Shown in pieces: positions 47 to 46,581 of a stretch of DNA of 64,000 nt. Source of the DNA: a virus; the IMG/VR virus record IMGVR_UViG_3300042290_000327, positions 56,716-120,715 of that record; one strand, 5' to 3'. The notes under the pieces were generated by a model. The model was not told the origin of the DNA. It was given only the letters and a program-made list of their open reading frames with translations, and searched no databases. Numbering within the stretch: the stretch's first letter is position 1; the number at the start of each line of letters is the position of its first letter. The translations under genes were made by a program, and so were the position numbers.

Positions 47-181
47 ATGGGTAAGATCCATTTACAGGACTTAGATCGGCTAGAGGAAGAATCTCGTCCT
101 TACCAGCCTATCAAGACCAATAGGAAGAAAAAAGTAAGTCCTATTTATAAAAAGGATAGCGACCAGTTGGATCGAAACTAA
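47..181 (+). CDS. small hypothetical protein, 44 aa
   Basis: ATG at 47 to TAA at 179-181 encodes a 44-residue hydrophilic peptide. An acidic first third (LDRLEEE) is followed by a lysine-rich stretch around residues 22-36. It sits tightly between two co-directional genes. No family is recognised; the tight packing is the main reason to believe it is real. Confidence 0.5.
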   Translation: MGKIHLQDLDRLEEESRPYQPIKTNRKKKVSPIYKKDSDQLDRN

Positions 182-197
182 ATTATTCTTATATTTA
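167..197 (+). promoter_or_regulatory. possible TTG-N20-TATATTTA promoter
   Basis: TTG at 167-169 and TATATTTA at 190-197 have the exact 20-base spacing seen at the other promoters of this window. The -7 box ends only four bases before the ATG at 202, much closer than at other genes, so the transcript would be almost leaderless or the match is chance. Confidence 0.35.
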
Positions 198-1118: not shown

Positions 1119-1149
1119 TTGGAGACTAGTTGACTAGTTACTATCTTTA
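1119..1149 (+). promoter_or_regulatory. TTG-N20-TATCTTTA promoter
   Basis: TTG at 1119-1121 and TATCTTTA at 1142-1149 are separated by exactly 20 bases. The leader to the ATG at 1168 is A-rich. This promoter would drive the DksA-like/HNH-like gene block. Confidence 0.7.
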
Positions 1150-2204: not shown

Positions 2205-2422
2205 AAGTACCTAAGAAGAGACAGCGTCCCCAGCTCGACAGCGAGAAGAACAAGCAGTATCTTCTTAGCAAACATGCTGATAAGCTTTTAGAGCAGGATC
2301 AGAAGAATAAAAAGTTATCTGAAAAGTTGCTTAGAGGGGATATATTTACTATCTTTATCGAAGAAGAAAAAAATAAAGGTTATGAGCGAGAAGAGAGGAC
2401 TGACGGAGAAGATCAAGTTTGA
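2201..2422 (+). CDS. small charged hypothetical protein, 73 aa
   Basis: ATG at 2201 overlaps the stop of the upstream gene. The product is highly charged (rich in Lys, Glu and Asp), starts with a basic patch MKVPKKRQRP and is predicted to be helical. No family is recognised. Its 3' end overlaps the next gene by 41 bases in another frame, so the C-terminal end or the next start is less certain. Confidence 0.5.
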   Translation: MKVPKKRQRPQLDSEKNKQYLLSKHADKLLEQDQKNKKLSEKLLRGDIFTIFIEEEKNKGYEREERTDGEDQV

Positions 2423-2666: not shown

Positions 2667-2675
2667 TCAATTTAT

Positions 2676-3198: not shown

Positions 3199-3203
3199 GT
3201 TAG

Positions 3204-3234
3204 TTGGATCTAATCAAGTTAGTTCCTATCTTTA
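3204..3234 (+). promoter_or_regulatory. TTG-N20-TATCTTTA promoter
   Basis: TTG at 3204-3206 and TATCTTTA at 3227-3234 with 20-base spacing, followed by the leader AAGTATAATTAAAAACAAA. It drives the DUF932-type gene. Confidence 0.75.
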
Positions 3235-3252
3235 AGTATAATTAAAAACAAA

Positions 3253-4237: not shown

Positions 4238-4254
4238 GGCAGGGAGGCCGAGGG

Positions 4255-4328
4255 GCGAGCGGAGGGGCGTTTCCCTCTCTCGCACCGAAGGTGCCACGCG
4301 CATTCTCATCAAAAGCCCTACCGGGCTT
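4255..4328 (+). ncRNA. GC-rich cluster of three hairpins (structured RNA or terminator)
   Basis: In the 135-base gap 4238-4372 three stems can be drawn. GCGAG (4255-4259) and GGAGGG (4261-4266) pair with CCCTCT (4273-4278) and CTCGC (4279-4283). GCACC (4282-4286) pairs with GGTGC (4290-4294). AAGCCC (4313-4318) pairs with GGGCTT (4323-4328). The region is far more GC-rich than its surroundings. The last hairpin lacks a strong T-run, so it is a weak terminator at best. Confidence 0.35.
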
Positions 4329-4372
4329 GGAAAAATTTAGATAAAAGGATTAATAAAAAACAAATAAGAGTT

Positions 4373-4606
4373 ATGGAGTACGGAAGTATAAGATGGAGGC
4401 CGTGGGTGTGTCTGCTAAAAGATGATGAAGGTATCACGGATGTTAAGAGGTTTGATAACTTCCAGGACATGCTACAGTGGAGGTTAGAGAACATAAGGAA
4501 GGGTTTGAATGCCGTCTCTATGACAGAAGAATACTACCTCGGTCTTGAGACCGATGAACATGCGGAGTGGTGGAAGAGTGTTAAACAGTTAATTGCATCT
4601 TTATGA
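4373..4606 (+). CDS. hypothetical protein, 77 aa
   Basis: The 77-residue product is rich in Trp and charged residues (SIRWRPWVCLL; EHAEWWKSVKQ). No clear promoter of the TTG-N20 type lies upstream; the leader is A-rich (AATAAAAAACAAATAAGAG). Its stop overlaps the next start (ATGA at 4603-4606). Function unknown. Confidence 0.55.
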   Translation: MEYGSIRWRPWVCLLKDDEGITDVKRFDNFQDMLQWRLENIRKGLNAVSMTEEYYLGLETDEHAEWWKSVKQLIASL

Positions 4607-4737
4607 GTAAGAGAATACCTTTAGACCAGGACCCTGCATTCCGGGACCTTAATTGGGACCTTCCTTTGAATAAGGATTGGGATGGCACGTTACAAGACGG
4701 ACTAGAAAATGAAGAGTGGGATGATGAAGAAGAGTGA
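4603..4737 (+). CDS. small acidic hypothetical protein, 44 aa
   Basis: ATG at 4603 overlaps the upstream stop; TGA at 4735-4737. It is an acidic 44-residue peptide with three Trp residues, ending in a run of Glu/Asp (EEWDDEEE). Translational coupling on both sides supports it. No family is recognised. Confidence 0.5.
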   Translation: MSKRIPLDQDPAFRDLNWDLPLNKDWDGTLQDGLENEEWDDEEE

Positions 4738-4906
4738 ACAGGAGTGGGATCATTACTCGGGAATACCTTCACCGTTAGCCTACCAGAAAAGAGAGCTAGA
4801 AAAGAAGCTAGAGAGGGAGTACGATGATGATGATTCTCAGGATGATGATAGAGAGTATAACCCCGGTAAGAGGACTTACAGTGATAGCCTTGAGGATGAA
4901 GAATAA
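4709..4906 (+). CDS. small charged hypothetical protein, up to 65 aa
   Basis: The frame is open from ATG 4709; ATGs at 4721 and 4724 would give shorter overlap with the upstream gene and the plausible start MMKKSEQEWDHYSG. The protein is very polar, with an Asp-rich run around residues 39-47. Its end overlaps the next start by eleven bases. Probably disordered; function unknown. Confidence 0.45.
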   Translation: MKSGMMKKSEQEWDHYSGIPSPLAYQKRELEKKLEREYDDDDSQDDDREYNPGKRTYSDSLEDEE

Positions 4907-5174
4907 CTTTTTATACAAAGTACTTATGAAAGACGGCAAGAGTAAAGGACAATGGCAGGACTGGGATAAGGCATATGCAAAGACTAGGTCGGTGATATGG
5001 AGCTGTAACAAGGAAGAGCATCTGGAGGCAGGACTGAGGATGGTGATAAACTATGAGAGACTAATGCAAAACTTCGGCCCTACTTCGGTACAAGGCCGGA
5101 GGATTGGAGCCGGGACAGTTGATGATCTCCTTTCTCTCATTAGGTTAAAACGTAAGATGATTAGGAGAGGATGA
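4896..5174 (+). CDS. hypothetical protein, 92 aa
   Basis: The frame opens at 4824, but the first 24 codons give an unlikely Met/Ile-rich N-terminus and overlap the upstream gene. The ATG at 4896 gives MKNNFLYKVLMKDGKSKGQ and a natural overlap of eleven bases. The product is a basic, mostly helical 92-residue protein. No family is recognised. It is the last gene before the AACCGT repeat region. Confidence 0.5.
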   Translation: MKNNFLYKVLMKDGKSKGQWQDWDKAYAKTRSVIWSCNKEEHLEAGLRMVINYERLMQNFGPTSVQGRRIGAGTVDDLLSLIRLKRKMIRRG

Positions 5175-5414
5175 TGAAGGGAGTAAACCGTAGCGTATAT
5201 AAAGATATTTGTATAGAGTGATATAAAGATATTAAGATATAAATTATGTATAAACTTAAAGCAAAGAGTGAAGTTAAAGCAAAGCTTTAATAGCTAGTAC
5301 CTGCCTCCCTCCCTTGCAACTTTTCTTCTATAGAAAATTATTATTTTTCAAACCTTAAAGTAAAGCTTTAAGTATTCAGTAAACCGTAGATAAAACCGTA
5401 GACTAGTAAACCGT

Positions 5415-5597
5415 ATGCAGAAAACCGTCCATGCAATCATCAGTGCTTTAACCGGCAGAAAACCGTACCTACTAGGTAACCGTCCAGAGGAAACCGTACA
5501 AGGTAACCGTAGGGAGAAAATCGTAGAGAGTACCGTACAGCCGTCTGTAAGGCTGGTTATAAACCTGGAGACTGGAACAGTTAAAGTAAAGCTTTAA
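5415..5597 (+). CDS. doubtful small ORF inside the repeat array, 60 aa
   Basis: ATG at 5415 to TAA at 5595-5597 could encode 60 residues. The central part is low-complexity (NRPEETVQGNRREKIVEST), because the AACCGT repeats are translated in mixed phase. No promoter or leader of the kind seen at neighbouring genes precedes it. It may be a by-product of the repeats rather than a gene. Confidence 0.25.
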   Translation: MQKTVHAIISALTGRKPYLLGNRPEETVQGNRREKIVESTVQPSVRLVINLETGTVKVKL

Positions 5598-5661
5598 GGT
5601 TTTAGAAAACCGTACGGAGGTAACCGTCTGGTAAACCGTAGGGAAAAAACCGTCCTGAAAG

Positions 5662-5692
5662 TTGTCTCCTGCTCTAAGGGTTCGTATCTTTA
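5662..5692 (+). promoter_or_regulatory. TTG-N20-TATCTTTA promoter
   Basis: TTG at 5662-5664, TATCTTTA at 5685-5692, spacer 20 bases, ending in GTTCG like the other copies. It drives the membrane-protein gene at 5710 and lies directly after the last AACCGT copy, so the array may act on it. Confidence 0.75.
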
Positions 5693-5709
5693 GATGAAAG
5701 AAAAAGGTT

Positions 5710-6057
5710 ATGACAAAGTTGGTAAAAGATTTGAGCGGGATAGCGCTAGTGGTGATGCTGCTAGTAGGAGGAGTTTTTGGCTGGGTCTACTCCCTAGCTA
5801 CTTTACTGTCCAGTAGAGAGGACCTGCCCGGGGTACTAAAGGCTAGCTTCAGAGGAAGCCTTATAGGAGTAGTAGCGCTAATCTACTTAGGGGTAACATA
5901 CCCAGACGCCTCTTCGGATATGTGGCTGGTGATCGCCCCGGGCTTCTGTGCTTCGGTCTGGTATCTGCTAGGGCCGGAGTTAGATAAAAAGCTAAAGGCA
6001 GGTATAGGTCTAGCCATAGCAGTAGGTGTACTAGCCTACATGGTGACTGCAGTCTAG
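5710..6057 (+). CDS. small integral membrane protein, 115 aa
   Basis: Four hydrophobic segments are visible near residues 9-28, 49-64, 72-88 and 96-115, separated by short polar loops (SSREDLPG; YPDASSD; GPELDKKLKAG). This predicts a four-pass inner-membrane protein. No family is recognised. It has its own promoter and is bracketed by AAAGCTTT repeats. It could be an early host-takeover or superinfection-exclusion protein, which is inference from its size and position only. Confidence 0.6.
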   Translation: MTKLVKDLSGIALVVMLLVGGVFGWVYSLATLLSSREDLPGVLKASFRGSLIGVVALIYLGVTYPDASSDMWLVIAPGFCASVWYLLGPELDKKLKAGIGLAIAVGVLAYMVTAV

Positions 6058-6206
6058 ACTTCAAGCAAAGCTTTAAGTTAAAGTAAAGCTTTAAGGTTTG
6101 AGTATAAGGTACCGGCCCGTCTACTCTTCCGCCTCTCTTCCAAGGGCAGGCCCGTCAACCATCCTAAATGTACGAAAAAATCTTTTAGTGACAAACTTTA
6201 TTTTAG

Positions 6207-6237
6207 TTGGATTGAAAATAGTTTGTACCTATCTTTA
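6207..6237 (+). promoter_or_regulatory. TTG-N20-TATCTTTA promoter
   Basis: TTG at 6207-6209 and TATCTTTA at 6230-6237 with 20-base spacing, followed by the standard leader that ends ACAACGGTT before the ATG at 6264. Confidence 0.75.
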
Positions 6238-6263
6238 GGTATAATTAAAAACAAACAACGGTT

Positions 6264-6419
6264 ATGTATTCATTAGATTGTAGCTATTTTAAAGCAGAAT
6301 TTGAAACATTAGAGGAATTAATAGAGTCTGTCATAATTAATGGAATGGATCCGAGTTATGAGGTAACATTTAATGGAGAAGGTACAGGAGAACAAATATT
6401 TGATTTGATTCAGATTTGA
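6264..6419 (+). CDS. small acidic hypothetical protein, 51 aa
   Basis: ATG at 6264, TGA at 6417-6419. The 51-residue acidic product (LEELIESVIINGMDPSYEV) has its own standard promoter and leader, which supports expression. The DNA is more AT-rich than the structural genes. No family is recognised. Confidence 0.6.
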   Translation: MYSLDCSYFKAEFETLEELIESVIINGMDPSYEVTFNGEGTGEQIFDLIQI

Positions 6420-6420
6420 T

Positions 6421-6451
6421 TTGGTTACCCAAAATATAGTTCGTATATTTA
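6421..6451 (+). promoter_or_regulatory. TTG-N20-TATATTTA promoter
   Basis: TTG at 6421-6423, TATATTTA at 6444-6451. The TTG begins two bases after the preceding stop codon, showing how tightly the cassettes are packed. Confidence 0.8.
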
Positions 6452-6477
6452 GGTATAATTAAAAACAAACAACGGTT

Positions 6478-6888
6478 ATGAATAAGTTAGTAAACAATAT
6501 TGCAAATAGGGATCTTCAGGTCTTCCATAAAGAATCTACCGATATGTGCGGTAAGGGAAAATATCGGGTGATTGTAAAGTGTCAGGCCGGATTTATGACT
6601 ACCAGTACTACTGAGGCGGAATCAGCCATTGAGGTCTTTCGTCGGTATAAGTTAAAATCAGTCCATTCTATCGCTAAGGTTATAAATGATGACTTTGATT
6701 CAACGGTCTATGCCCGGGTAGGGAAGAAGATCTGGATTTCAGAAGGTCTACTAGTTGAGATTAAGGTGGGGGATATCAATCAGGATCTCTATAAGACTGC
6801 TTTGTATAGTCAGTATCAGTATAAGTCCGTCAATGCGAATTCATGGGAAAGCTACGCCTACCAGATGAATGAGGAGGTTGCTGCTTAA
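6478..6888 (+). CDS. hypothetical protein, 136 aa
   Basis: The 136-residue soluble protein has mixed alpha/beta character; a beta-rich centre (TVYARVGKKIWISEGLLVEI) is followed by a polar C-terminus rich in Tyr and Gln. It has its own promoter and the common leader ending ACGGTT before the ATG. No recognised domain. Confidence 0.65.
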   Translation: MNKLVNNIANRDLQVFHKESTDMCGKGKYRVIVKCQAGFMTTSTTEAESAIEVFRRYKLKSVHSIAKVINDDFDSTVYARVGKKIWISEGLLVEIKVGDINQDLYKTALYSQYQYKSVNANSWESYAYQMNEEVAA

Positions 6889-6908
6889 AAAAAAAGTTTA
6901 GGAGGGGG

Positions 6909-6939
6909 TTGGTTTAACTAACCTTCCTTCTTATCTTTA
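6909..6939 (+). promoter_or_regulatory. TTG-N20-TATCTTTA promoter with hairpin-like spacer
   Basis: TTG at 6909-6911, TATCTTTA at 6932-6939. The spacer begins GGTTTAACTAACC (from 6911), a short inverted repeat followed by a pyrimidine run, like a weak terminator sitting inside the promoter. Confidence 0.75.
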
Positions 6940-6963
6940 GGTATAATTAAAAAACAAACGGTT

Positions 6964-7158
6964 ATGGAATCAGTAGAAGTTAAAAATCAGACTATCAATT
7001 ATACTATCAAATTTGGTGGTAATATATATAACCTCTTCTATTACGAAGATTTAATGTCCTATTCAGAGGAATTGACTGAGGCAGTCTCAGGGTTACCGGT
7101 ATTAGATGAAGATGAATATGAGGAGGTAATGAATTTCTTTGCGGATAATCGCAAATGA
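6964..7158 (+). CDS. small acidic hypothetical protein, 64 aa
   Basis: The 64-residue product has a beta-like N-terminal half (NQTINYTIKFGGNIYNLFYY) and an acidic helical end (DEDEYEEVMNFFADN). It has its own promoter and overlaps the next start by four bases. No family is recognised. Confidence 0.6.
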   Translation: MESVEVKNQTINYTIKFGGNIYNLFYYEDLMSYSEELTEAVSGLPVLDEDEYEEVMNFFADNRK

Positions 7159-7313
7159 GAATGAGTACTCAGTACCGGGTACAGGTGTATATGCAGGGTC
7201 CGGGTTATACTAACACATACCTGGTTAATAAAAAAGACTGTACAGTAGGTCTGTACATCAATGCTTACACTCCTGAAGGGGCGATAGAGAGGTACAGAAA
7301 GTTTATGAAGTAG
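7155..7313 (+). CDS. small hypothetical protein, 52 aa
   Basis: ATG at 7155 overlaps the upstream stop; TAG at 7311-7313. The peptide is Tyr-rich and looks like a small beta-sheet (YRVQVYMQGPGYTNTYLV) with a basic helix at the end (AIERYRKFMK). No own promoter, so it is expressed with the upstream gene. Function unknown. Confidence 0.5.
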   Translation: MRMSTQYRVQVYMQGPGYTNTYLVNKKDCTVGLYINAYTPEGAIERYRKFMK

Positions 7314-7344
7314 TTGCTTAATTGAAATTTAGTTCGTATATTTA
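7314..7344 (+). promoter_or_regulatory. TTG-N20-TATATTTA promoter
   Basis: TTG at 7314-7316 directly after the preceding stop, TATATTTA at 7337-7344. The spacer is nearly identical to that of the promoter at 7662 (CTTAATTGAAAT shared). Confidence 0.8.
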
Positions 7345-7367
7345 GATACAAATTAAAAATAAAGGTT

Positions 7368-7640
7368 ATGAAAGGCTTAGGAAGTAGTTTCAAATTTAAA
7401 ATCGGTGATAACTTAGTAACTTATGGGGGTGAGGAAGAAGTTATAGTATTAGGTGTAAAACCTAATTTAAAGGAAGCTTTAACAAATACTGAAGATCCTA
7501 TTACAGTTGAATTACTTCAGCGAGATTTAGATGAAAATTGTATAAATAAGGAAGATGAAGACAAACCATTTTATTTAGTAAAATCAGAATCCTTCCCAGG
7601 AAATAAATACTATGTAGAATCTGAATTAGAAGGAAAGTAG
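7368..7640 (+). CDS. hypothetical protein, 90 aa
   Basis: The acidic 90-residue protein begins with a small beta-barrel-like region (FKIGDNLVTYGGEEEVIVLG) reminiscent of SH3-like folds, then a charged middle and another beta segment near the end (PFYLVKSESFPGNKYYVES). It has its own promoter and leader. The fold suggestion is only an impression from the strand pattern. Confidence 0.6.
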   Translation: MKGLGSSFKFKIGDNLVTYGGEEEVIVLGVKPNLKEALTNTEDPITVELLQRDLDENCINKEDEDKPFYLVKSESFPGNKYYVESELEGK

Positions 7641-7661
7641 TATGAAATAAAATAAAGGTAG

Positions 7662-7692
7662 TTGCTTAATTGAAATATCGTTCGTATATTTA
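7662..7692 (+). promoter_or_regulatory. TTG-N20-TATATTTA promoter
   Basis: TTG at 7662-7664, TATATTTA at 7685-7692, spacer 20 bases. Together with 7314-7344 it forms a near-duplicate promoter pair bracketing the 90-residue gene. Confidence 0.8.
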
Positions 7693-7715
7693 GATACAAA
7701 TTAAAAATAAAGGTT

Positions 7716-7958
7716 ATGAATATAAAGTTAAAAGATAATGTATTTGGATTCACTTGGAATTATGAAACAGGTGAAGTAGAAGAAGTATTTACTGAGCAGC
7801 TTACTGCAAAGGAAATCCAGTTGATGGGCCGTGTTATGGGAAAAGATATCTGTTTGATACTAGAAGATGCTGATATCGAATTGGTGTTTGGTGAAGATAT
7901 CGAAACCCGGGACGACTTAGAGGAGATGGAATTAGCAGAAGTATTGGAATTTGTTTAA
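7716..7958 (+). CDS. small acidic hypothetical protein, 80 aa
   Basis: The 80-residue acidic product (about a quarter Glu/Asp) has a beta-like start (KDNVFGFTWNYETGEVEEVF) and a helical, acidic end. It has its own promoter and leader. Small acidic early proteins are sometimes DNA mimics or inhibitors, but nothing specific is seen here. Confidence 0.6.
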   Translation: MNIKLKDNVFGFTWNYETGEVEEVFTEQLTAKEIQLMGRVMGKDICLILEDADIELVFGEDIETRDDLEEMELAEVLEFV

Positions 7959-7976
7959 TAAAAGTTAGTTAGGGGG

Positions 7977-8007
7977 TTGGTTATACTGACCCTCTTTCTT
8001 ATCTTTA
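7977..8007 (+). promoter_or_regulatory. TTG-N20-TATCTTTA promoter with hairpin-like spacer
   Basis: TTG at 7977-7979, TATCTTTA at 8000-8007. The spacer holds GGTTatactGACC followed by a pyrimidine run, again a short inverted repeat between the two promoter elements. Confidence 0.75.
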
Positions 8008-8033
8008 GGTATAATTAAAAACAAACAAAGGTT

Positions 8034-8180
8034 ATGAAGACAGTAGTAGACTACTTAGACACCCTCCCTAAATCTGTAATAGCTTCTTTTGAGGAAGATT
8101 ATGGAATAAATGGATGGGATTTGCTAATGAGTAGCACAATAGAAGAAGCAAAAGATTTATTGGAGCAATATATAAAATAA
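8034..8180 (+). CDS. small acidic hypothetical protein, 48 aa
   Basis: ATG at 8034, TAA at 8178-8180. A 48-residue acidic, mostly helical peptide (LPKSVIASFEEDYGINGWDL). Its own promoter and a good terminator hairpin just downstream make it a self-contained cassette. No family is recognised. Confidence 0.6.
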   Translation: MKTVVDYLDTLPKSVIASFEEDYGINGWDLLMSSTIEEAKDLLEQYIK

Positions 8181-8187
8181 ATTTTAG

Positions 8188-8217
8188 GGGAGGAAGTTGG
8201 TTCCTCCCTTTTTATTT
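8188..8217 (+). terminator. intrinsic terminator overlapping the next promoter
   Basis: GGGAGGAA (8188-8195), loop GTTGG and TTCCTCCC (8201-8208) form a perfect 8-bp stem followed by TTTTTATTT (8209-8217). The loop contains the TTG of the next promoter (8197-8199), so terminator and promoter share bases. Confidence 0.75.
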
Positions 8218-8227
8218 ACTATATTTA
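8197..8227 (+). promoter_or_regulatory. TTG-N20-TATATTTA promoter embedded in a terminator
   Basis: TTG at 8197-8199 lies in the loop of the terminator at 8188-8208, and TATATTTA at 8220-8227 follows the T-run, with the standard 20-base spacing. Confidence 0.75.
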
Positions 8228-8249
8228 GGTATAATTAAAAACAACGGTT

Positions 8250-8360
8250 ATGGATGTACGTGATGTACTTGCTCAAAATGAATTTGGAATGGACTACGAC
8301 CAGCTAGGTCCAGGTGAGAAGGAATGGGTGAATGATGAAATTGATAACCTCCCCAGTTAG
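8250..8360 (+). CDS. very small acidic protein, 36 aa
   Basis: ATG at 8250, TAG at 8358-8360. Only 36 residues (MDVRDVLAQNEFGMDYDQLG at the start), but a standard promoter and leader (ACAACGGTT before ATG) precede it, so expression is likely. No family is recognised. Confidence 0.5.
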   Translation: MDVRDVLAQNEFGMDYDQLGPGEKEWVNDEIDNLPS

Positions 8361-8363
8361 TAG

Positions 8364-8394
8364 TAGTATCCTACCAGTATAGTTCGTATCTTTA
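8364..8394 (+). promoter_or_regulatory. variant promoter TAG-N20-TATCTTTA
   Basis: TATCTTTA at 8387-8394 preceded by GTTCG and followed by the standard leader. At the upstream position (8364-8366) the bases are TAG instead of TTG, so this copy may be weaker. Confidence 0.6.
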
Positions 8395-8420
8395 GGTATA
8401 ATTAAAAACAAACAAAGGTT

Positions 8421-8567
8421 ATGGAAATTAAAACAATAAGAGAGTTAAAAGAAACTTTACAGTTTAATCTAATTACTTACTTAGATGGACATGATGATAA
8501 AGTCCTTGATACTATTTGTAAAATAGTAATTGATACAGTCAATAATTACGAAGTAAATAAAAAATAA
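8421..8567 (+). CDS. small hypothetical protein, 48 aa
   Basis: ATG at 8421, TAA at 8565-8567. A 48-residue AT-rich gene whose product is predicted helical (TIRELKETLQFNLITYLDGH). Standard leader before the ATG. No family is recognised. Confidence 0.5.
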   Translation: MEIKTIRELKETLQFNLITYLDGHDDKVLDTICKIVIDTVNNYEVNKK

Positions 8568-8572
8568 AGGTT

Positions 8573-8740
8573 ATGGCAAATATGAGTTACTGTCGATTCG
8601 AGAATACGTATAGCGATCTTTTAGATTGTTTAGCGAATATTTCAGATGTAGCTGGAAATGAAAGAGATGAACGATATAGGATTCGTTTGATTCAGCTTCT
8701 AAAAGAAAATAAAGATTTGATTGAGGAGTTGGAAGATTAG
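8573..8740 (+). CDS. small acidic hypothetical protein, 55 aa
   Basis: ATG at 8573, TAG at 8738-8740. The gene keeps the 'AAAGGTT' start context but has no promoter of its own, so it is probably read with the upstream gene. The product is a 55-residue, mostly helical acidic peptide. Function unknown. Confidence 0.5.
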   Translation: MANMSYCRFENTYSDLLDCLANISDVAGNERDERYRIRLIQLLKENKDLIEELED

Positions 8741-8759
8741 AATATAGTTCGTATCTTTA
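8729..8759 (+). promoter_or_regulatory. TTG-N20-TATCTTTA promoter
   Basis: TTG at 8729-8731 lies inside the last codons of the upstream gene; TATCTTTA at 8752-8759 with 20-base spacing. Confidence 0.75.
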
Positions 8760-8785
8760 GATATAATTAAAAACAAACAAAGGTT

Positions 8786-8989
8786 ATGGAAATACTAAAA
8801 ACAACCACGGAGGTTCAAAAGGTAATCGAGACAATTGTTCAAGACGGCTCAAGCGTTTACATTGTAAAAGATTACTACCAGGCAGATAGCGATAAGATTA
8901 TTGATACGGTAATAACCACAAAAGATGGTTACGCGGTCGATGACCCTGCTGAATTCGAGTCTATTATCGAATTCCTCGAAGAAAATTAA
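8786..8989 (+). CDS. small hypothetical protein, 67 aa
   Basis: The 67-residue acidic product looks like a small alpha/beta protein (TIVQDGSSVYIVKDYYQADS). It has its own promoter and leader. No family is recognised. Confidence 0.55.
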   Translation: MEILKTTTEVQKVIETIVQDGSSVYIVKDYYQADSDKIIDTVITTKDGYAVDDPAEFESIIEFLEEN

Positions 8990-8997
8990 AATAAAAG

Positions 8998-9028
8998 TTG
9001 GTTCGTGTTAACTTAGTTCGTATATTTA
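8998..9028 (+). promoter_or_regulatory. TTG-N20-TATATTTA promoter
   Basis: TTG at 8998-9000, TATATTTA at 9021-9028, followed by the consensus leader ending AAACAAAGGTT before the ATG at 9055. Confidence 0.8.
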
Positions 9029-9054
9029 GGTATAATTAAAAACAAACAAAGGTT

Positions 9055-9555
9055 ATGAAAGCAAATGAATTAAATGAAGGGGTTTACGAAGTATTAACTC
9101 GCATTACTTACGCCCGAAAAGTGAATAGTTTTAGCGAATCTACTGCTAGCATGTTTATACATCTGTCAGATGAAACCAAAGCGGCTATAAAATCCTTCCC
9201 GGTTTTGGATTTCGATGATGATGTTGATTTGATGGATATTTTTACTCTTGATGGAGATCAGCAGTTTTATGTATTTCATAATACGACTACCGATGGATAT
9301 TTCTTAGTTGATACCCAGGGCTATAATTACCCCCGGTATATCACCCGACTATGGGGTTTCATGAATGAACAAACCGATGATCAAATCGATGATACATTCC
9401 TGCGAATGGATGGGCTGGTTCGAATTGCTGATGTTGCGATTTTAAGATCTGTGGTTAAGAGTTTGGCTTTTGATTTGCAGGAAGAAGGATTTGATAGAGC
9501 AGATATCATCAATTTCATCGATGCTCAAATCCACGGAGCACTTTTTGAAAAATAG
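9055..9555 (+). CDS. hypothetical protein, 166 aa
   Basis: This acidic soluble protein is among the larger early-region products. The middle is beta-rich with aromatic residues (DGDQQFYVFHNTTTDGYFLV), and the C-terminus is helical (GFDRADIINFIDAQIHGALF). Own promoter and leader. No family is recognised. Confidence 0.6.
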   Translation: MKANELNEGVYEVLTRITYARKVNSFSESTASMFIHLSDETKAAIKSFPVLDFDDDVDLMDIFTLDGDQQFYVFHNTTTDGYFLVDTQGYNYPRYITRLWGFMNEQTDDQIDDTFLRMDGLVRIADVAILRSVVKSLAFDLQEEGFDRADIINFIDAQIHGALFEK

Positions 9556-9586
9556 TTGTCTCCTAAGATCTTAGTTCGTATATTTA
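9556..9586 (+). promoter_or_regulatory. TTG-N20-TATATTTA promoter
   Basis: TTG at 9556-9558 starts directly after the preceding stop; TATATTTA at 9579-9586. Confidence 0.8.
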
Positions 9587-9612
9587 GGTATAATTAAAAA
9601 CAAACAAAGGTT

Positions 9613-9804
9613 ATGAAAGATAATAAAGTTATAGTAGATACAGTAATTGATTTGCTAATTGATATCGATTGTGATGGCGAAACGATGGAGTTTATCCTTC
9701 ATAAAGTAGGAATGGAATATCAGATGCTAAGGCAGTTGATATTAAGTATGCCTTTAGAGCAGGTAGAATATCTTTTGGAAGAACGAAAAGGGTTGGTTAG
9801 TTAA
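9613..9804 (+). CDS. small acidic hypothetical protein, 63 aa
   Basis: The 63-residue acidic product is predicted to be almost entirely helical (VIDLLIDIDCDGETMEFILH; MPLEQVEYLLEERKG). Own promoter and leader. The next promoter's TTG lies in its last codons. Function unknown. Confidence 0.6.
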   Translation: MKDNKVIVDTVIDLLIDIDCDGETMEFILHKVGMEYQMLRQLILSMPLEQVEYLLEERKGLVS

Positions 9805-9823
9805 AAGTTAGTTCGTATATTTA
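9793..9823 (+). promoter_or_regulatory. TTG-N20-TATATTTA promoter
   Basis: TTG at 9793-9795 lies within the end of the upstream gene; TATATTTA at 9816-9823; consensus leader to the ATG at 9850. Confidence 0.8.
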
Positions 9824-9849
9824 GGTATAATTAAAAACAAACAAAGGTT

Positions 9850-10602
9850 ATGATAAATGAAATTCAAGATCCCAATCAGCTTACTCTCGGTATTGAAAAC
9901 CAAGTATTGACTGTTGAGCAAATAGCGCGAGTAGAAGCATTCAAAGAGCGATTGACTAAGAGTAATGAAAATACTAAAGCTTCTTTGCTCCGTAAGCAGG
10001 CTCTACTGCTAGAAAATGGCTTTATCGAAGGTAAGGATTTTAGCTTCTCTATGGAGGAGGTAAATGAAGACGCAGATGTTAATGCCAATGGCTGGAATGA
10101 TAATGAGGTGATAGTTACTGTAGATGTTCGGCGGGTTAATGGTAAGTGTGTGCTACTCTACGATCGTTATGAAGCTACTTCTGATATGATTGTTCAGTCG
10201 ATAGCAGGTTTTAGTGTCGAGCTAAATAAAGTAGAGTGCCATACTATTAACGGTAATGGCCGGTGGGTTACCTTCCGGAAGCTGAAAGAGAACTTAGCTG
10301 AAAAGAACTCAAGTGCTCAATGGGAGATGAGTTCTGCTCGAAATAATAAGTCAGTGCTTAGCTATACTGCTGAAAAGTATCGGAAGCTTGCTCCTGGGGC
10401 TGAAGTGACGGTGAGCCGTGAAGGTGCGTCTAGTGGCCGTAGGTACTACTCCTTCGATACTGTGACTGTGAAGTTTCAAAATGGAAATCTATTAGTTGTT
10501 GCGCCCAGAAGGAATAATGATGAGGAGTTAGTTCATCGCTTTATCGATGTAACGACTGCTAATAAGAGTGCTGAAGAGCTAGTCCAGTACCTCGGTAAAT
10601 GA
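9850..10602 (+). CDS. hypothetical protein, 250 aa
   Basis: The 250-residue soluble protein has a helical N-terminal third (TVEQIARVEAFKERLTKSNE) and beta-rich segments further on (VIVTVDVRRVNGKCVLLYD; RRYYSFDTVTVKFQNGNLLV). No family is recognised. Own promoter; a 4-base ATGA overlap couples it to the next small gene. Confidence 0.6.
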   Translation: MINEIQDPNQLTLGIENQVLTVEQIARVEAFKERLTKSNENTKASLLRKQALLLENGFIEGKDFSFSMEEVNEDADVNANGWNDNEVIVTVDVRRVNGKCVLLYDRYEATSDMIVQSIAGFSVELNKVECHTINGNGRWVTFRKLKENLAEKNSSAQWEMSSARNNKSVLSYTAEKYRKLAPGAEVTVSREGASSGRRYYSFDTVTVKFQNGNLLVVAPRRNNDEELVHRFIDVTTANKSAEELVQYLGK

Positions 10603-10766
10603 AGACTAAGCTAAAGAGGGTATCAGCTGAGCTGGCGGAGAACCTAAGGAAGTGGGAGCCGGATTTACTCCGGCCCTACTCCGCCGAGAGGAAGCAAGGA
10701 CCTAAGTACTTTACCTCCATCAAGCAGAAAGATGGATGGGATGAGATAAGCTACTATATAGATTAG
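10599..10766 (+). CDS. small basic hypothetical protein, 55 aa
   Basis: ATG at 10599 overlaps the upstream stop; TAG at 10764-10766. The basic 55-residue peptide (KTKLKRVSAELAENLRKWEP) is predicted helical at the start. A translation-coupled partner of the 250-residue protein. Function unknown. Confidence 0.5.
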   Translation: MKTKLKRVSAELAENLRKWEPDLLRPYSAERKQGPKYFTSIKQKDGWDEISYYID

Positions 10767-10778
10767 ATAAGTTAGCCT

Positions 10779-10840
10779 CCTGGGTAGGGCGCTAATACAC
10801 CCAGGGTTTGTTTGTCTGGGTTGAGGTCCTTCGGGATCTC
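10779..10840 (+). ncRNA. two tandem hairpins between genes
   Basis: CCTGGGT (10779-10785) pairs with ACCCAGG (10799-10805), and GAGGTCC (10823-10829) pairs with GGATCTC (10834-10840) around a UUCG loop. Neither is followed by a long T-run, so terminator function is uncertain. The CCTGGG/CCCAGG stem recurs at 11385-11420, which suggests a repeated structured element. Confidence 0.4.
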
Positions 10841-10856
10841 TTCCTGGTTACAATAG

Positions 10857-10887
10857 TTGCCTCCAGAGGATTTAGTTCGTATATTTA
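10857..10887 (+). promoter_or_regulatory. TTG-N20-TATATTTA promoter with hairpin-like spacer
   Basis: TTG at 10857-10859, TATATTTA at 10880-10887. The spacer contains CCTCcaGAGG, another inverted repeat between the promoter elements. Confidence 0.8.
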
Positions 10888-10913
10888 GGTATAATTAAAA
10901 ACAAATAAAAGTT

Positions 10914-11096
10914 ATGTCATCAGTTACAGAAAACGCACTTAGGGAAATCGCTTCAGCTTACGCCCAGGCAGTAGGTGTCCTAGAAGCTAGTATTAAGATC
11001 ACACTCGAGAGAGGTGCTAGCCTATCTACCCAGGAGAGGGAAGACCTACTAAAGAGAGGTCTAGAGAAATCTAAGGAGATAATCGATAACGCATAA
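10914..11096 (+). CDS. small hypothetical protein, 60 aa
   Basis: The 60-residue product is predicted to be a helical hairpin (ENALREIASAYAQAVGVLEA; SLSTQEREDLLKRGLEKSKE). Own promoter with leader ending AAATAAAAGTT. No family is recognised. Confidence 0.55.
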   Translation: MSSVTENALREIASAYAQAVGVLEASIKITLERGASLSTQEREDLLKRGLEKSKEIIDNA

Positions 11097-11099
11097 GGG

Positions 11100-11130
11100 T
11101 TGGTCCTTCGGGACCTTCTTCTTATCTTTA
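11100..11130 (+). promoter_or_regulatory. TTG-N20-TATCTTTA promoter whose spacer is a UUCG hairpin
   Basis: TTG at 11100-11102 and TATCTTTA at 11123-11130. Between them GGTCC-TTCG-GGACC (11102-11115) is a perfect 5-bp hairpin followed by TTCTTCTT. It could terminate incoming transcription while the same bases form the promoter for the next gene. Confidence 0.75.
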
Positions 11131-11156
11131 AGTATAATTAAAAACAAACAACGGTT

Positions 11157-11378
11157 ATGAAAAGTAAAAAAGGTACAGTAAGTCCAATTATGGAAGTCGT
11201 TCTAATCAATGCTCTAAAGCTATGGCAGTCAAGCTTCATTCAGGAGCTAGATCAAATGAAGGCAGAGGGTAAGCGTCCAATGTTTCATCCTAACTGGACC
11301 TCGCTCATGATGCAGGACTTCGGTATCGAGTTCGGGATTGAGGAGCTTAAAAATACTCAACCCATCTTAGGGGATTAA
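11157..11378 (+). CDS. small hypothetical protein, 73 aa
   Basis: The 73-residue helical product (MEVVLINALKLWQSSFIQEL) contains a conserved-looking PMFHPNW turn near residue 41. Own promoter and leader. No family is recognised. Its stop codon lies inside the 5' arm of the downstream hairpin. Confidence 0.55.
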   Translation: MKSKKGTVSPIMEVVLINALKLWQSSFIQELDQMKAEGKRPMFHPNWTSLMMQDFGIEFGIEELKNTQPILGD

Positions 11379-11430
11379 GAGTACTCCTGGGTTCAGTTTG
11401 TCTTCGCGACCAGCCCAGGATACTCTCCCC
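11370..11430 (+). ncRNA. long imperfect hairpin after a small gene
   Basis: GGGGA (11370-11374), GAGTA (11379-11383) and TCCTGGG (11385-11391) pair in order with CCCAGGA (11414-11420), TACTC (11421-11425) and TCCCC (11426-11430). Only short bulges interrupt the 17 base pairs. The loop itself contains GTC...GAC. There is no T-run directly after it, so a processing site, mRNA stabiliser or small RNA is as likely as a terminator. Confidence 0.45.
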
Positions 11431-11439
11431 TATTAAGAG

Positions 11440-11470
11440 TTGGCCCTTCGGGGCCTTCTTCTTATCTTTA
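11440..11470 (+). promoter_or_regulatory. TTG-N20-TATCTTTA promoter whose spacer is a UUCG hairpin
   Basis: TTG at 11440-11442, TATCTTTA at 11463-11470. GGCCC-TTCG-GGGCC (11442-11455) fills the spacer and is followed by TTCTTCTT, exactly the layout of the promoter at 11100. Confidence 0.75.
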
Positions 11471-11497
11471 GATATAATAAACAAACAAACAAAGGTT

Positions 11498-11767
11498 ATG
11501 AAAGCAAAAGAAATCAAAGCAATGATGACGGCTCTTAAGAGTAAGGGCATAATGGTATCAGGTACAGCATCAGAGTTCTACGGTGCTAAGGCTTCTAATG
11601 AGGGTATATGGGTGGCTGCTGAGTATACCCCCAGTCTATTTGACTACTATAGCGAGGTGTGGGGTGATACATTCGGTGTAGAGCCTAAGCTGAATCAGAT
11701 GGTGGAAGATAACGGCTGGTACTTTGAATGGCATGACGCCGGTACGATGATGGTCTGGGAGGCCTGA
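11498..11767 (+). CDS. hypothetical protein, 89 aa
   Basis: The 89-residue protein has a helical start (KEIKAMMTALKSKGI) and an aromatic-rich C-terminus (GWYFEWHDAGTMMVWEA). Own promoter and a strong terminator downstream close this transcription unit. No family is recognised. Confidence 0.6.
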   Translation: MKAKEIKAMMTALKSKGIMVSGTASEFYGAKASNEGIWVAAEYTPSLFDYYSEVWGDTFGVEPKLNQMVEDNGWYFEWHDAGTMMVWEA

Positions 11768-11782
11768 AATTAGAAACTAGGT

Positions 11783-11808
11783 AGGGGCCTTCGGGCCTCT
11801 TTTTTTTT
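11783..11808 (+). terminator. intrinsic terminator ending the early plus-strand block
   Basis: AGGGGCC (11783-11789), TTCG loop and GGCCTCT (11794-11800) form a 7-bp stem (one G-T pair), followed by a run of T to 11808. It separates the early genes from the strand-switch region. Confidence 0.85.
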
Positions 11809-11811
11809 CCC

Positions 11812-11855
11812 GGAGGTCGGATGGAGGTCAAGGGTAGGTCAGGGCTAGGTCACTG
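11812..11855 (+). repeat. four 11-bp tandem repeats with AGGTC core
   Basis: AGGTC occurs at 11814, 11825, 11836 and 11847, spaced exactly 11 bases apart, close to one DNA turn. The units read (G/C)(G/T)AGGTC followed by four variable bases. The array lies just after the terminator and before an AT-rich stretch (11935-11990) in the gap 11809-12015. This is iteron-like spacing; an origin or operator is possible. Confidence 0.6.
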
Positions 11856-12015
11856 TTACTGCACTGTGCGATAACCATGCTAGTATATTTCACTATACGG
11901 TTTTCTCGACGGTATTCTCCAGCTAGTTAAAATAATGCATCGCTGATAGATTTTAAGGTATACTAATATATATTTATATATAGTAAATAAGGGTACAAGT
12001 ACTTCAACGGGTTAA

Positions 12016-12294
12016 TTAATTAGATTTAGTTGAGGTAAGATCCTTCAACTCCCTTTTTGTTTTTTCTTCAAGCTTATCCACCCTACTGTCAACATGACGG
12101 TAGACTGCCTCCAGGTCCCGCCTTATAGCGTTATCCTGTTCATTACTAAATTCGTATAACCTTTGCTCAGCCTTCTCAAAATTCGATACTTCTTTGATAA
12201 GGTTTTTAATTGCCATGTAATTCATAAACGTAACCGCAACTACTACCGAAGTAATAACAGCACCTACACCTAAAAGAAATGATATTGTTTCCAT
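12016..12294 (-). CDS. membrane-anchored coiled-coil protein, 92 aa (only minus-strand gene)
   Basis: On the minus strand, ATG at 12294 to the stop at 12016-12018. Residues 5-27 (ISFLLGVGAVITSVVVAVTF) form one transmembrane helix; residues 30-88 are charged with a heptad-like pattern, predicting a cytoplasmic coiled coil. A promoter of the window's standard type lies upstream on the same strand (12345-12375). It converges on the early block. Function unknown; small membrane proteins in such positions can affect superinfection or lysis, but nothing specific shows this. Confidence 0.65.
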   Translation of the reverse strand: METISFLLGVGAVITSVVVAVTFMNYMAIKNLIKEVSNFEKAEQRLYEFSNEQDNAIRRDLEAVYRHVDSRVDKLEEKTKRELKDLTSTKSN

Positions 12295-12344
12295 ATTATA
12301 TATTTTATATATGTCAAAGCACTTGTAGCACCCTTACTACGGTT

Positions 12345-12375
12345 TTAATATAAGAACTTTTGGGGGTAAAACCAA
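12345..12375 (-). promoter_or_regulatory. minus-strand TTG-N20-TATATTAA promoter
   Basis: Read on the minus strand, TTG (12375-12373) and TATATTAA (12352-12345) are separated by 20 bases with GTTCT before the -7 box, matching the plus-strand promoters. It points at the minus-strand gene. Confidence 0.65.
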
Positions 12376-12418
12376 CTATTGACGGGAAAATTTTCCGGAA
12401 AAAAATTCTACTATACAG

Positions 12419-12449
12419 TTGCCTATATAAGTATATCTTTATATATTTA
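12419..12449 (+). promoter_or_regulatory. TTG-N20-TATATTTA promoter
   Basis: TTG at 12419-12421, TATATTTA at 12442-12449. It starts the second plus-strand block. A late-type box lies just downstream (12467). Confidence 0.65.
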
Positions 12450-12466
12450 ATATTATAGGAGAATCT

Positions 12467-12475
12467 CTATTTATA
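12467..12475 (+). promoter_or_regulatory. late-type box CTATTTATA
   Basis: CTATTTATA ends nine bases before the ATG at 12485. The same motif precedes many structural genes. Together with the promoter at 12419 it would give dual control. Confidence 0.5.
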
Positions 12476-12484
12476 TAAAAAACT

Positions 12485-12895
12485 ATGAAACTCATCTCTG
12501 CTTTACTCCAGGAATCTATCTCGGGTCTTTTTACCAACAGTATTAAGGACTTTGGCAATGATGAATATAATGTTTTTGCTACAGGCTACAGGATGTTAGG
12601 TGGGGAGATTACCTCCGGTGATGGTTTTTTGCAGGGATCTCGTGAGAATATGATAGATTTTAAGTTTACACCCAGTATCGTATCACCGGATTACGGTCAT
12701 TTTGCTTTTGATAACGTATCTTTACTTAATTACATCAAGACTAAGTTGATGGATACGGATTTGCGTAGGAAGATGGGGAAGGAATTCAATATTGCACCCG
12801 TTGCTAAGGATTTCGAGAGACAGATCCTTATAGCAGCCGGTAATAGCGCCGTTGATATCGTCTCAAGACTAGGCCGGCATAAGAAGGTGAACTAA
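12485..12895 (+). CDS. hypothetical protein with capsid-targeting-like leader, 136 aa
   Basis: The N-terminus MKLISALLQES matches the recurring leader of this genome (short amphipathic stretch ending L-x-E then a small residue), like the T4 internal-protein targeting sequence. The rest is a soluble 136-residue protein with no recognised domain. The leader and the upstream late-type box suggest a virion-associated protein (inference). One base overlaps the next gene (TAATG). Confidence 0.6.
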   Translation: MKLISALLQESISGLFTNSIKDFGNDEYNVFATGYRMLGGEITSGDGFLQGSRENMIDFKFTPSIVSPDYGHFAFDNVSLLNYIKTKLMDTDLRRKMGKEFNIAPVAKDFERQILIAAGNSAVDIVSRLGRHKKVN

Positions 12896-13329
12896 TGAAA
12901 CCTCTATCCCCTACCCTGTTTGAGCTCTTTGACTACGATGATCAGAACGATCTCCGGCAGGAAGGCTTGACGGGTGCGGTTTTGGATTACACCCAGCACC
13001 CGTACATCATCTTCGGGACCTTCATTCGGTCGGTTGAAAACTTCTATATCATCTGCCAGACATACCGCAATACATACGGGGAGAAATTTGATAAAATTGA
13101 GGAGCGCTTAAAGCACCAGTACTTTAATAGAGTGTACGGGTTCCTAGAAAGGTTCGATGAGACGCAATTGGAACACATAATTGAGGCCCGGCAGTTCACC
13201 GACTCAGAGATACTCTATGCAGTCAAGTCCGTGCTAGATTTTTATGAGTCTATAGAAGATTACAGAAAATGTGATAGGCTATGGAAAATACTTCTGCTAA
13301 CGGTAGGAGAAAAAGTTGGTAGAACCTAA
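12895..13329 (+). CDS. hypothetical protein, 144 aa
   Basis: The start overlaps the upstream stop by one base. The product is a mostly helical, aromatic-rich 144-residue protein (HPYIIFGTFIRSVENFYIIC; KSVLDFYESIEDYRKC). No recognised domain. The promoter of the next gene overlaps its last codons. Confidence 0.6.
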   Translation: MKPLSPTLFELFDYDDQNDLRQEGLTGAVLDYTQHPYIIFGTFIRSVENFYIICQTYRNTYGEKFDKIEERLKHQYFNRVYGFLERFDETQLEHIIEARQFTDSEILYAVKSVLDFYESIEDYRKCDRLWKILLLTVGEKVGRT

Positions 13330-13346
13330 ATACTTTCTTATCTTTA
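13316..13346 (+). promoter_or_regulatory. TTG-N20-TATCTTTA promoter
   Basis: TTG at 13316-13318 inside the end of the upstream gene; TATCTTTA at 13339-13346; A-rich leader to the ATG at 13370. Confidence 0.75.
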
Positions 13347-13369
13347 AGTATCAATAAAAAATAAAGGTT

Positions 13370-15601: not shown

Positions 15602-16303
15602 ATGGGCAGAAAGAAAAGTGATACTAACTATTTCACGCAAGACACCGAAGACGCAATTGTAGCGTACAATAACTCGAAAGATGTAACCTTTCGTCAGAAG
15701 ATTTTCACGGATAAAATCTATTATCCGTTCTACAAACTAGTAGAAAACATTATTCACACCTTTAGATTCTACTACACCGATGTGGAAGACCTAGAGGACT
15801 TAAAGCACGAGGTTATCTCCCTACTTATTGAGGAGAAGATACATATGTTTGATTCAACCCGTGGTGCGAAAGCATACTCTTACTTCGGGACTATCGTCAA
15901 AAGGCATCTTATTAACTATAACAATAAGAATTATAAGCGTTTAAAGTCTCTAGCACCGGTTGAAGACTTTAACGGCACCTATGACTTAGATACAGCCGAT
16001 GTAAGACCTTACGCATTTACACTCAGGCAGATCTTTGACATATATATCGAGAGGACTTATGATAAGTTAGATGACCTTTTTCCTAAAGAGTCCGACCGCA
16101 AGGTCGCTGATGCGATACTCATTCTCTTTAAGAAGCGTTATGATTTAGATATCTTCAAGAAGAAGGCTTTATATATTTATATCCGAGAGATGACAGGTAC
16201 CGAGACTCCGTACCTCACCAAAGTCATCAACGTACTCAAGACAGAATTCTACCAACTATACAACGGACTAGAAGAACAAGGATTAATTGATCTAAAAAAC
16301 TAA
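15602..16303 (+). CDS. 55: late-transcription sigma factor, gp55-like
   Basis: The 233-residue protein has the sigma region-2 pattern of T4 gp55-type factors: YTDVEDLEDLKHEVISLLIE near residue 60, then FDSTRGAKAYSYFGTIVKRH near 84-103, the stretch that contacts the -10 element. T4 gp55 directs host RNA polymerase to TATAAATA late promoters. Its place immediately before the structural genes, each block preceded by a TATTTATA motif, fits that role. The promoter it reads here is inferred. Confidence 0.75.
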   Translation: MGRKKSDTNYFTQDTEDAIVAYNNSKDVTFRQKIFTDKIYYPFYKLVENIIHTFRFYYTDVEDLEDLKHEVISLLIEEKIHMFDSTRGAKAYSYFGTIVKRHLINYNNKNYKRLKSLAPVEDFNGTYDLDTADVRPYAFTLRQIFDIYIERTYDKLDDLFPKESDRKVADAILILFKKRYDLDIFKKKALYIYIREMTGTETPYLTKVINVLKTEFYQLYNGLEEQGLIDLKN

Positions 16304-16308
16304 CCTTT

Positions 16309-16317
16309 CTATTTATA
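16309..16317 (+). promoter_or_regulatory. late-type box CTATTTATA
   Basis: CTATTTATAAAGAAAAGG, ten bases between the box and the ATG at 16328. It marks the start of the tail/baseplate block directly after the gp55-like gene. Confidence 0.6.
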
Positions 16318-32110: not shown

Positions 32111-32889
32111 TTTATCCAGGTTCCAATTTTCTTTTAGAGCATAAGCAAAAACGCATTCAGTTCGACGGAGAGCTAAAGCAGATCACTCTGCCGGACCGCC
32201 GGGTTTACAGAAGAGGCGAAGGCATTTATTACCCCTCCGTTACTACGATCCTGCAGTACATGCCCAAAAATAAGTTCTTTGAGCAGTGGATTAAGGACGT
32301 AGGGCATAATGCCGATCTCATCATGAGAAGGGCAGGTGAAGAAGGGACGGCAGTCCACAATGCAGCCGAGGAGCTGATCAAAGGCGGGGAAGTCCAGTGG
32401 ATGGATGATTACGGCAAGGCTAAGTACTCGCTGCTGGTATGGCAGATGATCAATAAGTTCGTTGAAGCTTGGAAGGCCATGGACCCTGACGTCATTGCTA
32501 CCGAAGAATTTACCTTCTCAGACGTCCATAAGTATGCCGGTACTGCTGATATCATTGCCAAGATCGGTGATGAGGTTTGGTTGCTGGATATTAAGACTTC
32601 TAATTCTTTGCATAAGTCTCACGAGTTACAGCTATCGGCTTACGCCAAGGCCTGGGAAGAGATGTACGGGCAGAAGATCGACCGGACAGGTATTATCTGG
32701 CTAAAATCAACTAAGAGAACTGCCTCTAGCAAGGACGGAGCATTCCAGGGTAAGGGATGGGAGCTTAAAGTAGTTGATAACATCGATGAGAACTTTGAAC
32801 TATTCCAACTCATCTATAAACTCTACCTTTTAGAGCATCCTGCCGATGAACCATCCTTTCAGACATATCCTTTATCGGTAAAGTTGTAA
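32107..32889 (+). CDS. PD-(D/E)XK exonuclease (RecB/Cas4-like), 260 aa
   Basis: The motif set is clear: AGTADIIAK (D148), LLDIKTS (D161, K163) and QLSAYAKAWEE (Q near 176), matching the PD-(D/E)XK nuclease fold of RecB/Cas4-type exonucleases. Residues upstream (YPSVTTILQYMPKNKFFEQW; GTAVHNAAEELI) fit the N-terminal part of phage-encoded members. It is translationally coupled to the primase, pointing to a role in replication, recombination or host DNA degradation. Confidence 0.8.
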   Translation: MIYPGSNFLLEHKQKRIQFDGELKQITLPDRRVYRRGEGIYYPSVTTILQYMPKNKFFEQWIKDVGHNADLIMRRAGEEGTAVHNAAEELIKGGEVQWMDDYGKAKYSLLVWQMINKFVEAWKAMDPDVIATEEFTFSDVHKYAGTADIIAKIGDEVWLLDIKTSNSLHKSHELQLSAYAKAWEEMYGQKIDRTGIIWLKSTKRTASSKDGAFQGKGWELKVVDNIDENFELFQLIYKLYLLEHPADEPSFQTYPLSVKL

Positions 32890-32914
32890 GCTATTTATAA
32901 AGAGCCTATCTTTA
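32884..32914 (+). promoter_or_regulatory. overlapping early-type and late-type promoters
   Basis: TTG at 32884-32886 and TATCTTTA at 32907-32914 are 20 bases apart, and CTATTTATA (32891-32899) sits inside the spacer. The two promoter classes therefore overlap upstream of the nucleotidyltransferase genes, allowing expression in both phases. Confidence 0.6.
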
Positions 32915-46572: not shown

Positions 46573-46581
46573 CTATTTATA
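46573..46581 (+). promoter_or_regulatory. late-type box CTATTTATA
   Basis: CTATTTATACTTAAACAG, 16 bases between the box and the portal ATG at 46598. Confidence 0.6.

Follow-up and report, generated by a model that had tools for sequence, protein, structure and literature searches.

Most of the small genes between 5.7 and 11.5 kilobases (kb) of the DNA studied here, a 64,000-nucleotide stretch of a phage genome, are preceded by copies of one bipartite motif, TTG-N20-TAT(A/C)TTTA, the second box of which is written below as TATMTTTA. The stretch, called the window throughout, comprises positions 56,716-120,715 of the 120,715-base IMG/VR record IMGVR_UViG_3300042290_000327, which is possibly incomplete; coordinates are those of the window unless stated otherwise. 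Judging from comparisons of sequence, we consider it likely that the motif represents the early-type promoters of a T4-like phage of Bacteroidota, a relative of vB_FspM_immuto_2-6A (hereafter immuto) from Flavobacterium, and that these promoters are read by the host RNA polymerase with the primary sigma factor, sigma-ABfr.

The portal and capsid proteins encoded by the record match the T4 families Gp20 and Gp23, which makes its source a T4-like phage. Its nearest named relative by capsid is immuto (74%), whose host is Flavobacterium sp. LMO8; the capsid of RM378 stands at 37%. Homology between the record and the immuto genome covers large parts of both, and a Flavobacterium host may be assumed for the record by transfer from this relative.

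Distribution and conservation of the bipartite motif

The initial annotation of this DNA had described about two dozen copies of the motif with an invariant 20-base spacing. Indeed, 22 exact matches were found in the window, all of them on the + strand, against 0.21 expected from dinucleotide shuffles, the largest of which gave 2. When the search was extended to the full record, as had been proposed, it returned 34 forward and no reverse matches, all on the coding strand, and a reversed-pattern control gave 1. TTG stood exactly 20 bases upstream in 34 of the 53 + strand TATMTTTA boxes, and every other spacing occurred at most twice. Neither spacing variants nor the form ending in TTTG were enriched in this genome, TATMTTTG having one TTG partner at N20.

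The copies were not spread equally within genes, since 4 of the 34 boxes lay wholly inside open reading frames (ORFs) of at least 60 amino acids, whereas 28.7 were expected from coding density. Fifteen of the 22 window copies fell in 5662-11470, where an additional box at 8387 lacks the TTG. Between 5.7 and 11.5 kb, the -7 box was located 17-27 bases before the ATG of 16 of the 19 small genes, so the annotated placement before most small genes was correct, and the structural genes carry another motif (see below). The three small genes without a box look like second genes of operons. Chance and coding artefact were ruled out as the origin of the motif by the shuffles, the strand bias and the position. 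The putative promoter copies of the window are listed below; they were identified by pattern match, supplemented as indicated.

167..197, +, copy TTG-N20-TATATTTA
1119..1149, +, copy
2327..2357, +, copy
3204..3234, +, copy
5662..5692, +, copy, small gene at 5710 (gene distance)
6207..6237, +, copy, gene at 6264 (gene distance)
6421..6451, +, copy, gene at 6478 (gene distance)
6909..6939, +, copy, gene at 6964; terminator-like spacer hairpin (-15.6 kcal/mol, z -3.0)
7314..7344, +, copy, gene at 7368 (gene distance)
7662..7692, +, copy, gene at 7716; nearly identical to the 7314 copy
7977..8007, +, copy, gene at 8034; spacer hairpin (-15.4 kcal/mol, z -3.3)
8197..8227, +, copy, gene at 8250; -33 TTG in hairpin loop, followed by TTTTT (-15.8 kcal/mol, z -3.0)
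8387..8394, +, -7 box TATCTTTA with full trailer, TAG replacing TTG at -33; gene at 8421
8729..8759, +, copy, gene at 8786; -33 box within the upstream gene, at its 3' end
8998..9028, +, copy, gene at 9055 (gene distance)
9556..9586, +, copy, gene at 9613 (gene distance)
9793..9823, +, copy, gene at 9850 (gene distance)
10857..10887, +, copy, gene at 10914 (gene distance)
11100..11130, +, copy, gene at 11157; spacer hairpin GGTCCTTCGGGACC (folding)
11440..11470, +, copy, gene at 11498; spacer hairpin GGCCCTTCGGGGCC (-13.8 kcal/mol, z -2.9)
12419..12449, +, copy
13316..13346, +, copy, gene at 13370
32884..32914, +, lone copy within the structural region, overlapping TATTTATA at 32892

With respect to the sequences flanking the -7 box, it had been claimed that most copies carry GTTCG before it and a common trailer after it. 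This was an overstatement, as GTTCG was present in 9 of the 22 window copies and the full trailer GGTATAATTAAAAACAAA in 7 of 22 (GGTATAATT in 9 of 22); what does hold for most copies is the looser TTCN, found in 16 of 22. The trailer proved to be a leader common within this phage, and the leader of immuto is different (GGTATCAATAATTAAAAC).

The motif is conserved in the family. The immuto genome contains 33 forward copies and 1 reverse copy; most are concentrated at 66-76 kb, where small hypothetical genes follow one another, and others occur in further non-structural regions. Six other long records bear 19-35 copies in one orientation and 0-1 in the opposite one, and two more bear 23 and 33 copies, with 2 and 1 in the opposite orientation, respectively. 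A consensus of 163 non-redundant copies reads AGTTG(C/G), 15-16 variable bases, TTCN, TATMTTTA, GGTA and an A-rich leader, with A-tracts located some 4-6 and 16-19 bases before the TTG. The T4-like outgroups RM378, Mel-JY01 and the uncultured records LR756508 and LR756511 gave 1-2 matches each, which is the control level, and the unrelated Flavobacterium phage FCL-2 revealed no clear class of such promoters. An origin of the copies in unrelated phages was rejected, as 73 of 79 loci among the IMG/VR matches listed encode homologues of immuto or of the present record; the motif-bearing contigs without a capsid gene are fragments or distant relatives.

One might ask whether these elements are promoters at all, or rather mobile or duplicated 5' cassettes, composed of leader and translation-start repeats and maintained by recombination between small genes. 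Such copying would account for the copies at 7314 and 7662, which are near-identical from -33 to the ATG, and for the leader common within one phage. Across phages, however, only AGTTG, TTC, TATMTTTA and GGTA are constant, while the spacer and the leader past GGTA diverge. Preservation of both boxes and of an exact N20 between them, across unrelated spacers, points to selection on a bipartite site and not to cassette copying, and we regard the cassette explanation as highly improbable.

The spacers themselves contain an excess of hairpins. When the 27 bases before the -7 box were folded, 25 of the 163 copies (about 15%) reached -7 kcal/mol or lower, in comparison to a mean of 1.6 and a maximum of 4 in a control with letters permuted within columns. 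Window copies with such hairpins are those at 6909, 7977, 8197, 11100 and 11440; their folding energies range from -10.9 to -15.8 kcal/mol, and the T-rich runs that follow end at the -7 box. Each such hairpin is probably an intrinsic terminator of the upstream gene, overlapping the next promoter.

Several further observations were made around the motif. GGTTATG is a recurring start-codon context after the A-rich leader (window 2378-13366), with G at -3; the start-codon context of F. johnsoniae favours A at this position (PMC6847099). Directly upstream of the small-gene cluster, about 470 bases (window 5186-5655) contain 13 irregularly spaced copies of AACCGT(A/C), possibly a protein-binding array or a coding repeat. 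A DksA/TraR-type zinc-finger gene (window 1168-1557), whose product is a possible RNA polymerase modulator, has an early-type copy upstream. At G000:C1:16816 and 20229 of the record, TCTTTGACATACTGGTAAAA follows two promoter copies, which adjoin a cluster of 27 transfer RNA (tRNA) genes; it resembles a boxA antitermination signal and is absent from immuto. The boxA reading of GTTCTTTGACATACTGGTAA near tRNAs was not confirmed, as three matches in Bacteroidota genomes had no ribosomal RNA or tRNA genes nearby.

A at -5 and the putative reader of the motif

Assignment of the motif to the Bacteroidota type of promoter, made in the initial annotation, agrees with the published geometry of primary-sigma promoters in this phylum, namely -33 TTTG and -7 TANNTTTG (PMC6847099), and with the Flavobacterium host of the nearest named relative. 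The -33 TTG of the phage copies corresponds to this scheme. The last base of their -7 box does not: in Flavobacterium johnsoniae this box reads TAHHTTTG, the G at -5 being nearly invariant, it is accompanied by a weak -33 element, and transcription starts 4-5 nucleotides downstream (PMC6847099). Loci were picked independently of the motif, by a neighbouring sigma gene; of their 108 copies containing AGTTG as well as TTC, 103 ended in A and 5 in G. The respective counts for A were 16 of 16 in the present record and 22 of 22 in immuto. A scan of IMG/VR found at least 120 stretches with the full composite ending in A and none with the same composite ending in G; the composite loci taken from IMG/VR had been selected for A, and the A:G ratio among them carries no evidence. 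On the host side, the full composite was present in 1 of 60 Bacteroidia genomes, and in nine genomes from one presumed host-side order no clear excess over the control was seen at N20, whether the box ended in A or in G.

The change from G to A had been proposed as a phage-specific signature. The change is real; nevertheless, it is confined to the immuto-like lineage and does not extend to phages generally. In crAss001, TTG-N20-TAHHTTTG is in excess (10 forward and 4 reverse matches, other spacings giving 0-2), and the A form is not. Thus, N20 is a geometry of wider occurrence among the promoters of Bacteroidota phages, and what belongs to the immuto-like lineage is the A at -5.

In the mechanism that we favour, the sigma factor would bind AGTTG at -33 through its region 4 and the TATMTTTA -7 box through its region 2, with spacing fixed at 20 bases. 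The upstream A-tracts could act as a UP-like element, TTC as an extension of the -7 box and GGTA as a discriminator, and RNA would start 4-5 bases past the -7 box. Nearly every small gene would have a promoter of its own, and about 1 in 7 spacers would also end the upstream transcript through its hairpin. Reading by the host enzyme is suggested by the host-type geometry, by the negative search for a second sigma gene in the record and in immuto (see below) and by the analogy to T4 relatives. The A at -5 might be tolerated or even favoured by sigma-ABfr in the presence of a strong -33 box and TTC, might be imposed by a phage factor, or might be related to the genes for 7-deazaguanine modification of DNA that these phages carry.

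Two facts weigh against reading by the unaided host enzyme. The main difficulty is that A is nearly always found at -5, where hosts have a nearly invariant G that a host-optimised promoter should keep. Moreover, the composite is nearly absent from hosts and occurs in one phage lineage only, which fits a lineage-specific phage factor too. Indeed, the prevalence of A and the restriction to a lineage could both result if the RNA polymerase of the host were retargeted by a phage protein, in the manner of MotA and AsiA in T4, the copies then forming a middle-type class. Such a factor would recognise AGTTG or alter which final base of the -7 box sigma accepts, and would in this way explain the A together with the fixed spacing; a DksA-like zinc-finger gene (window 1168-1557) and many small genes of unknown function are present in the family. 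T4 middle promoters are likewise a phage-specific class with a host-like -10/-7 box. In T4, however, the Mot box replaces the -35 element (PMC1524935), whereas the phage copies described here keep a host-like TTG at the host -33 position. Neither a MotA-like gene nor a second sigma gene came to light, the search for MotA having been negative among scanned proteins that covered part of the small ORFs; small proteins of unknown function remain candidates. On balance, we think a middle-type class unlikely.

Another explanation would involve modification of guanine in the phage DNA: A would be retained at -5 because 7-deazaguanine at this position could hinder sigma contacts. Enzymes of this kind are at hand, as DpdA, QueC, QueD, QueE, QueF and FolE are annotated in immuto, and homologues of QueD, QueE, FolE, DpdA and QueF are encoded at G000:C1:326-8987 of the record. 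G is nevertheless conserved elsewhere in the promoter, in AGTTG and GGTA, which makes this explanation very doubtful. A broader proposal is that the lineage possesses a Bacteroidota promoter code of its own, in which A stands at -5 because a phage factor or modified DNA alters the reading by sigma-ABfr, and in which terminators are fused into the spacers, so that one 31-base element both ends and starts transcripts. We put this forward tentatively, as possible rather than probable.

The late-type motif and a candidate sigma gene

The structural genes are associated with TATTTATA, present 28 times on the + strand and 2 times on the - strand of the record. In the window it occurs 20 times (5.4 expected), 19 of them on the + strand. 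It tends to fall within 50 bases before genes, which in immuto include those of the terminase, portal and tape-measure proteins. The two motifs divide the genome between them. When the window was split at 13.4 kb, 21 early-type and 4 late-type sites lay below this point and 1 and 15 above it (Fisher p 1.6e-6); in immuto, split at 77 kb, the corresponding numbers were 30 and 9 below and 3 and 19 above (p 2e-6). It is probable that TATTTATA is the late promoter of the structural genes, conserved in immuto-like phages. Relevant features of the window are the following.

142, 16310, 18543, 37796, 41368, 46574, 48480, 56056, 59523, +, examples of TATTTATA sites
15602..16303, +, candidate gp55-like late sigma gene, 233 amino acids, homologue of immuto gp118 (weak profile matches)
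16310..16317, +, TATTTATA late-type box (motif match)
46574..46581, +, TATTTATA late-type box before the portal gene, as before the immuto portal gene (motif match)

A phage gp55-like sigma factor would probably read the late-type box. The candidate, encoded at 15602-16303, is a relative of immuto gp118, which is annotated as hypothetical. The Pfam family Sigma70_r2 was matched weakly in 22 of 30 relatives of this protein, with a best expectation value (E) of 0.0015 and the first member below the curated cut-off; a single-genome match gave E 1.3e-4. The late sigma family phrog_234 was matched in 3 of 8 records at E 7.5e-4 to 0.02 per genome (0.02 in the present record, 7.5e-4 in a relative). 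A search of PDB sequences gave no convincing match, and the RM378 sigma factor, tried as a relative of the candidate, gave no profile match. A relationship to gp55 is probable, though not proven.

No gene with sigma70 region 2 other than 15602-16303 was found in the possibly incomplete record. In the complete immuto genome no match to this region reached E 1, and phrog_234 picks the same gp55-like gene. Since region 2 is the only part matched in the 15602-16303 protein, it is unlikely to be the reader of the -33 TTG. In a distant relative, a second sigma region 2 gene, above the Pfam cut-off, is located directly upstream of the early-type promoter cluster (G076:C1:43687-43887).

A separate observation is that TATATTTATA fuses an early-type -7 box with a late-type box, at G000:C1 12801, 16560 and 22752 of the record and at 90659 and 149758 of immuto. 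Such a merged site could serve both phases.

Significance and comparison with known promoter systems

In the open-access papers searched, subscription papers lying outside the coverage, we found neither an earlier description of this promoter class nor a promoter map of a T4-like Bacteroidota phage. Any immuto-like contig can be scanned for the proposed early (TTG-N20-TATMTTTA) and late (TATTTATA) classes, and both are open to testing with a phage and host in culture. A base that hosts avoid is fixed at -5, which raises the sharp question of how sigma-ABfr manages to tolerate it or is brought to prefer it. The compact promoters holding hairpins might be used as parts of expression tools for Flavobacterium and its relatives.

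With the promoters of sigma-ABfr the phage copies share TTG at -33, TA..TTT in the -7 box and a gene-proximal position. They differ in having A at -5, a strong -33 box, a fixed N20 and the added TTC and GGTA, whereas host promoters have G at -5 and a weak -33 element or variable spacing, the latter reported for Bacteroides (PMC7366714). As to the late class, the late promoters of T4 have the sequence TATAAATA and are recognised by gp55 (PMC1524935). Similarly to this sequence, TATTTATA is located a short distance upstream of structural genes, in a genome with a gp55-like gene; however, the two boxes differ at two of eight bases, and the similarity of the candidate to gp55 is weak.

The nearest parallel to our proposal for the early class is provided by the T4-type phages, in which the early promoters are modified versions of the host type, have UP-like A tracts and precede novel ORFs and tRNA genes (PMC1524935). 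The sigma class and the sequences are different, since T4, RB69, RB49 and 44RR infect gammaproteobacteria and not Bacteroidota. The arrangement is nonetheless the same: a T4-like genome bears many modified host-type copies with an A-rich upstream element in front of small novel ORFs.

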